DNA of 64,000 nucleotides from Opitutaceae bacterium (GTDB lineage Bacteria; Verrucomicrobiota; Verrucomicrobiia; Opitutales; Opitutaceae), in assembly GCA_023269565.1 (NCBI GenBank), contig JAHFTD010000004.1, forward strand, positions 1 to 64,000, written 5' to 3'. Below, one piece after another: positions 58,881-59,130 of the stretch. Made by a program: the position numbers and the translations under genes. Numbering within the stretch: the first letter of the stretch is position 1; each line of letters begins with the position of its first letter. The notes under the pieces are model-generated. The model saw only the letters and a program-made list of their open reading frames with translations, was not told the origin of the DNA and did no database searches.

Positions 58881-59080
58881 GCCCAAGGCGGCTTCCGAGA
58901 ATGGGCCATCAAGCTCGTCGGAGGAAGCCGCCTTGGGCGGATTTGCGTCCCTGGGCGAAAGAGTCTAGGGTGCAAAAGCCGGGACGTTGCGCTGACCGGC
59001 CGTTGGCGCAACGCCGGGAGTGGCAGGCCGCACGCCTTCCGAGGCCCGACCTCCAGAATGAGCCTTGGCCCCACTCCCGG
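58881..59080 (+). ncRNA. Candidate bridge RNA (seekRNA) of the IS110 element
   Basis: The untranslated region before the transposase folds into three strong hairpins: a 16-bp perfect stem at 58881-58896 with 58923-58938 (GCCCAAGGCGGCTTCC), an 8-bp stem at 58985-58992 with 59006-59013 (CGTTGCGC), and a 10-bp stem at 59014-59023 with 59071-59080 (CCGGGAGTGG) that contains an inner 7-bp stem (59039-59045 with 59062-59068, one G-U pair). IS110 elements are known to carry such an RNA, which guides donor and target pairing. The guide loops are not assigned. Confidence 0.6.
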
Positions 59081-59130
59081 ACCTGGTCCAACTCGAACCG
59101 CTGACCGAGCCCTTGAGCTCGCATAACAAG

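Follow-up and report, generated by a model that had tools for sequence, protein, structure and literature searches.

A predicted bridge RNA in the left end of an IS110-group insertion sequence from an Opitutaceae bacterium

The DNA analysed (the window; 64,000 nt of contig JAHFTD010000004.1, Opitutaceae bacterium) carries an untranslated leader of tandem stems directly before an IS110-type transposase gene; a previous sequence-only reading had taken this leader for a new, programmable guide RNA paired with an intact recombinase. The question was whether the leader is a bridge RNA of the IS110 group and, if so, which DNA it addresses. Coordinates of all features are collected in Table 1.

The element and its recombinase

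Limits of the element: transposase relatives were drawn from GTDB genomes and from the host's own family and class; a search for relatives in viral contigs returned none. The left end CTTGTATGTTC and the right end ACACCGCTG, followed by CT, were common to more than 20 relatives whose flanks are unrelated; it is the close relatives that share both ends, and the left end was the exact first base of several relative contigs. The left end is long (291 bp), the right end short (8 bp), and the RNA lies upstream of the gene, as in the IS110 group; the left donor sequence ACACCGCTG (60075–60083) overlaps the recombinase gene by one base, the third of its stop codon. Sub-terminal inverted repeats of the IS1111 type (7–17 bp) were not found between CTTGTATGTTC and ACACCGCTGCT of the window element, nor was the IS1111 arrangement with an RNA in a long right end, the right end being of 8 bp. 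The element was present once in the host draft genome (84% complete; more copies may be missing).

Recombinase: the N-terminal DEDD RuvC-like domain (PF01548) was followed by the C-terminal serine domain (PF02371), the combination that marks the IS110 group; NCBIfam NF033542, "IS110 family RNA-guided transposase", gave 171.7 bits (cut-off 140). The protein was aligned with IS621 (PDB 8wt6; E = 3e-32, 115 bits, over about 290 aa) and with ISCro4 (PDB 9t56; E = 3.4e-32), the latter being of the same recombinase family but distant in sequence. In the alignment, D15, E58, D100, D103 and S238 fell on the catalytic residues D11, E60, D102, D105 and S241 of IS621 (PMC11208158); the reading frame was whole and all catalytic residues were kept, so that the description of the recombinase as intact held. 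Related recombinases in the set were about 45–69% identical and had at least five natural targets.

Table 1. Features of the element, its predicted RNA and the adjoining DNA (window positions)
Feature	Position	Strand	Remarks
IS110-group insertion sequence, very probably complete	58840–60083	+	1244 bp; second core CT = 60084–60085
Left core dinucleotide CT	58840–58841	+	right core at 60084–60085
Predicted −10 box TATGTT	58844–58849	+	promoter would form only in the circular form; −35 TCGCCC at 60065–60070, 17-bp spacer
Predicted bridge RNA, approximate extent	58857–59143	+	about 290 nt; 5' end judged from promoter, 3' end from donor-loop closing stem
Stem-loop 1, 16-bp stem	58881–58938	+	compensatory changes in 12/16 outer pairs, 96.9% paired
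Stem-loop 2	58944–58974	+	compensatory changes in 9/11 pairs
Extra hairpin adjoining target arm	58985–59013	+	compensatory changes in 10/11 pairs
Target-binding arm	59014–59080	+	stems 59014–59022/59072–59080 and 59026–59029/59067–59070; internal loop; apical stem 59041–59044/59050–59053
Left target guide GCACGCCTTCC	59030–59040	+	matches left flank CGACGCCTT[CT], ACGCCTTC contiguous
Right target guide GAATGAG	59056–59062	+	complementary to right flank [CT]CATTC, exact 7/7
Donor-binding loop	59084–59143	+	closing stem TGGTC 59084–59088/GACCA 59139–59143 plus CTC/GAG; apical stem (4 bp) 59107–59110/59117–59120
Left donor guide GAACCGCTGAC	59095–59105	+	matches right end ACACCGCTG
Right donor guide CATAACAAG	59122–59130	+	interrupted pairing with left end CTTGTATG; directly before tnp start codon
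DEDD recombinase, 314 aa	59131–60075	+	PF01548 + PF02371
Right non-coding end	60076–60083	+	8 bp
Outer tip of second, IS1111-like element (the target)	60084–60095	−	
attC-type R' box GTTGGGC	60097–60103	+	next to tip of IS1111-like element
Remainder of IS1111-like element	58675–58839	−	left end + truncated DEDD transposase N-terminus (NKPIGIDLGDRRHTVCVL...); parallels L120:1501–2914 and L129

Fold and covariation of the leader

The 271-nt leader was folded at −141.4 kcal/mol against −107.4 ± 5.3 kcal/mol for 200 dinucleotide shuffles, none of which folded as well (z = −6.46). All stems described beforehand were recovered: the perfect 16-bp stem (58881–58896/58923–58938), the second stem-loop, and the long stem with its inner stem, which belongs to the target arm. 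That list was incomplete, as a further covarying hairpin (58985–58996/59002–59013) had been missed; likewise the extent first proposed (58881–59130) overlooked the donor-binding loop with its apical stem. Parts of the RNA follow one another in the order stem-loop 1, stem-loop 2, a junction closed by 58980–58983/59082–59085 that holds the extra hairpin and the target arm, and the donor loop; a conserved fold with a 5' stem-loop, a target loop and a donor loop is that of the IS110 group.

Covariation was followed in 14 aligned leaders. The consensus fold held 70 pairs, 91.6% of its cells being standard pairs, and compensatory changes on both sides were found at 50 of the 70; none of 500 shuffles reached any of the five measures of covariation, and sliding the partner by 1–3 columns lowered pairing to 36–46%. 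In stem-loop 1 the outer stem was variable and the inner stem and loop nearly invariant (CCGAGAATGGGC..CTCGTCGG); two relatives (L018 and L020) had a 16-bp stem almost wholly different in sequence, with pairing kept. Read on the minus strand, standard pairs fell to 84.5%; G-U pairs at fixed places were kept in 14/14 leaders and assign the RNA to the plus strand. The leader had also been called free of coding potential; mechanical open reading frames of 101–124 aa do cross it, and what stood of the claim is that indels of 1, 3, 4 and 5 nt among the leaders fit an RNA and not a protein.

Rfam 15: no family reached its gathering threshold in the leader; the only sub-threshold hits were sX15, on the strand opposite the leader, and a miRNA model at chance level. 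The match to sX15 (RF02234, a Xanthomonas small RNA) was of full length (1–159 of 159; window 59003–59153, minus strand, opposite to the bridge RNA; 29.9 bits, E about 0.002). On Xanthomonas plasmids (L148:1990–2775) the strand opposite sX15 has a donor-guide-like CGAACAGTTGCC and, at once after it, an IS110-like N-terminus MNGIGIDVCKAKLFVG; sX15 may represent a relic IS110 bridge RNA, either as its antisense or as a copy in the wrong orientation.

Guide sequences and their matches

Target loop: both target guides lie on opposite sides of the internal loop of the target arm and match the two flanks of the element itself, the target DNA being ACGCCTTCTCATTC. The contiguous ACGCCTTC matches the left flank ACGCCTT[CT], the whole left guide imperfectly (8/11; second core base C, not T). 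The right guide stands at the same alignment position in close relatives (leader position about 214–222). Guides are thus complementary to both strands of the insertion site, core included, as in the IS110 group. Guides had been looked for also in the second stem-loop (58944–58974), and this candidate was rejected: its resemblance to the target was of the wrong sense; the third arm gave the match.

Among 25 non-redundant elements, 18 carried in their own leader the exact complement of their own seven right-flank bases (core plus five), against a mean of 1.7 and a maximum of 6 when flanks were swapped among elements (2000 permutations, elements with different right flanks counted as independent); for distant relatives the ends were set by fuzzy matching, and any that are wrong would tend to reduce the count found. 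The seven elements without an exact right guide were mostly distant or of uncertain ends. Summed over 13 elements, the best scores of the left guide came to 100 against 86.6 ± 2.8. One relative was found in five copies at five sites of a single genome (G164), all with the left target GGATC[CT] as in its RNA (CTGGATCCT); compared with its right guide AGTGAAG, two right flanks were exact, a third differed in one G-U pair and the other two had a single mismatch each. A single symbiont MAG, Candidatus Synoicihabitans palmerolidicus (L014–L078), held more than 12 copies of a relative, most of them at the consensus target CTTCGTTCC[CT]TCTGTAACATCC, and one copy (L021) was without most of RNA stem-loop 1; these copies offer a natural series for the study of RNA decay.

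Donor loop: the donor guides are complementary to the joined ends of the element, AACACCGCTGCTTGTATG, again as in the IS110 group, and change with them. Four right-end types were met (ACCGCTG, ACCACTG, ACCGTTG, ACAGTTG), and for the last three the same change was mostly present in the RNA (GAACCACTG, GAACCGTTG, AACAGTTG). The apical stem covaries in the 14 leaders; the closing stem varies in step among relatives (TGGTT/AACCA, GGATT/AATCC, GGTTC/GAACC; read by eye, not tool-counted). Since the 3' side of the closing stem lies within the first codons of the recombinase gene, the RNA very probably takes in about the first 13 nt of the gene, to about 59143, beyond the end first proposed for it.

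Promoter: when right and left ends were joined in silico, most relatives showed a −35 box (TTGTCC, TTGCCC, TTGTCA or TTGCCA) and a −10 box (TATGTT or TATGTC) about 17 bp apart; a promoter rebuilt across the junction of right and left ends, a mark of the IS110 group, is thus predicted, with an RNA start near 58857. The −35 of the window copy, TCGCCC, is weakened (3/6).

From the fold, the covariation, the matches of guides to flanks and to ends, and the predicted junction promoter, beside a recombinase intact and related to those of IS621 and ISCro4, we consider it highly probable that 58840–60083 is a complete IS110-group insertion sequence whose left end encodes a bridge RNA, with the guided recombinase downstream. 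The sequence-only reading is borne out in this respect; of its word "new", the sequence itself deserves it, the kind does not, as bridge RNAs were already predicted in 85.7% of IS110-group elements (Durrant et al., PMC11208160).

Other explanations of the leader were weighed against the same data. The stems could be palindromes at the level of DNA, of REP-like or attC-like kind, and the neighbourhood does contain palindromic repeats and attC-like sites; but a double-stranded palindrome would not favour one strand through conserved G-U pairs (91.6% against 84.5%), and the target matches lie in unpaired loop sequences, which leaves this explanation hardly credible. A cis-acting regulator of the transposase, an attenuator or translation block in place of a guide RNA, is favoured by the position of the donor loop, which abuts the start codon and whose closing stem enters the gene, so that translation too is probably affected by the fold; regulation by small RNAs was also once proposed for the IS110 transposase of ISPpu9. 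Such a regulator has, however, no reason to carry loops that match the insertion flanks of each element (18/25 against 1.7 expected) or a loop sequence that follows the right end, and is very improbable.

That the locus is the inactive remnant of a bridge RNA element in decay, its sequence merely kept, is unlikely: the single copy in the draft genome and the weakened −35 speak for it, and against it stand an intact reading frame with all catalytic residues, the intactness of all stems, and guides that match both ends and flanks.

For a bridge RNA element the following course is proposed, transcription, protein binding and strand exchange being taken over from IS621 (Durrant 2024, Hiraizumi 2024). 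In the excised circle the joined ends would create a promoter, −35 from the right end and −10 from the left, from which the RNA would be transcribed; the DEDD recombinase, whose gene follows directly, would bind this RNA; the target loop would pair with both strands of ACGCCTT[CT]CATTC and the donor loop with the joined ends ACACCGCTG[CT]TGTATG; and the recombinase would exchange strands at CT, giving insertion without target duplication beyond the core.

The disrupted partner element, known systems and meaning

Uninterrupted target (GCCTTCTCATTCCTACT): exact occurrences were found at two places in one genome (G039) and at one in another (G023), and occurrences with one mismatch in G021 and G017; an element of a further genome (L092, G024) had the same guides in the same target, CTACGCCTT before the first CT and CATTCCTACTTGTTGGGC after the second. 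In L120 (G023) and L129 (G039), GCCTTCTCATTCCTACT forms the left-hand tip of a different DEDD element, whose transposases (L120:1524–2612, L129:1564–2604) carry PF01548 and PF02371. The L120 element has a short left end and a right end of about 300 nt that closes with GCCTTCTCATGGAAG (L120:2900–2914); the left tip and this closing sequence give sub-terminal repeats of 10 bp, ATGAGAAGGC/GCCTTCTCAT. It is flanked by halves of an attC-like site (GGCTAACC before AG, and ACGCCAGAGCCAACGGCC). This end layout looks like that of the IS1111 group, and the site like that of the elements named IS1111-attC in the literature. To judge by these parallels, the window element has as its target a sub-terminal inverted repeat belonging to an IS1111-like DEDD element, which is in turn lodged in an attC site; the guide would have served for entry into that repeat. 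The attC site as direct target was rejected: its box is found only past the outer tip of the partner element, and the partner is itself in attC.

The partner in the window is a relic. Its 33-aa transposase fragment was too short to score in Pfam, and the N-terminus breaks off beside a dispersed palindromic repeat of ~67 bp (58605–58671, CATTGTCACTTAATAGGTGACAAT...ATTGTCACCTATTAAGTGACAATG), MITE- or REPIN-like, of which the genome has about ten copies (contigs C22, C84, C100, C142 of G000 and others; most of 87–95% identity). A second meeting place of both element kinds was seen on contig C43 of the same genome (1132–1356), where a fragment from the C-terminus of a related IS110 transposase lies directly beside an N-terminal IS1111-like fragment, a run of N separating the two. 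Sites of attC-like type (AACCAGACGCCAGAGCCAACGGCC...GTTAGCC) were located at 60557–60618 (minus strand) of the window and at G000:C98:712–733; two small open reading frames beside such sites (60091–60555; 60630–60995, minus) gave no Pfam or NCBIfam match. Sites and frames together would be the remains of an integron cassette array. A search of the host draft genome for an integron integrase gave only generic hits below cut-off, such as the same search also returned in 14 control genomes.

Likeness to known systems: with IS621 (PMC11208160, PMC11208158; PDB 8wt6) the element has in common an RNA encoded in the left end ahead of the gene, the order of 5' stem-loop, target loop and donor loop, the short right guide, CT core and discontiguous right donor guide, the promoter rebuilt in the circle, and a DEDD and Ser recombinase. 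It differs in the length of its RNA (about 290 nt against 177 nt), in two added parts, namely a second stem-loop and the hairpin within the junction beside the target arm, in a donor loop that overlaps the recombinase gene, in its target, and in its distant recombinase. The seekRNA of ISEc21, of the IS110 family (Siddiquee 2024, PMC11187229), is likewise a guide RNA from the upstream non-coding region, and the target of ISEc21 is likewise inside another IS (an IS3 transposase gene); the window element, by contrast, addresses an IS1111-like inverted repeat and no transposase codon. The IS1111-attC group, with its IS1111 seekRNA, resembles not the window IS110 element but its disrupted partner (short left end, ~300-nt right end, repeats, attC flank).

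The existence of an RNA at this locus was to be expected, most IS110 elements being predicted to have one in the founding paper; the novel details are, on present reading, the target, an IS1111-like sub-terminal repeat in attC, and a donor loop that runs into the recombinase start codon. These details would fit an IS110 lineage of Opitutia-type Verrucomicrobia with an enlarged bridge RNA and a donor loop straddling the start codon, one branch of which was naturally reprogrammed to IS1111-like inverted repeats, which would disable the sequence used by the rival recombinase, one guided element thus preying on another in integron attC sites; we regard the chances for and against this picture as evenly balanced. 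A well-supported bridge RNA system is added from a phylum not mentioned in the founding paper (PMC11208160), and the related recombinases are candidates for programmable DNA rearrangement. Nesting in a guide-relevant repeat of another guided element and the series of natural targets, which among close relatives shows natural reprogramming, are the parts notable to specialists, with ISEc21 as a known parallel; the target being an inverted repeat of another RNA-guided element in attC, competition between RNA-guided transposons would become testable.
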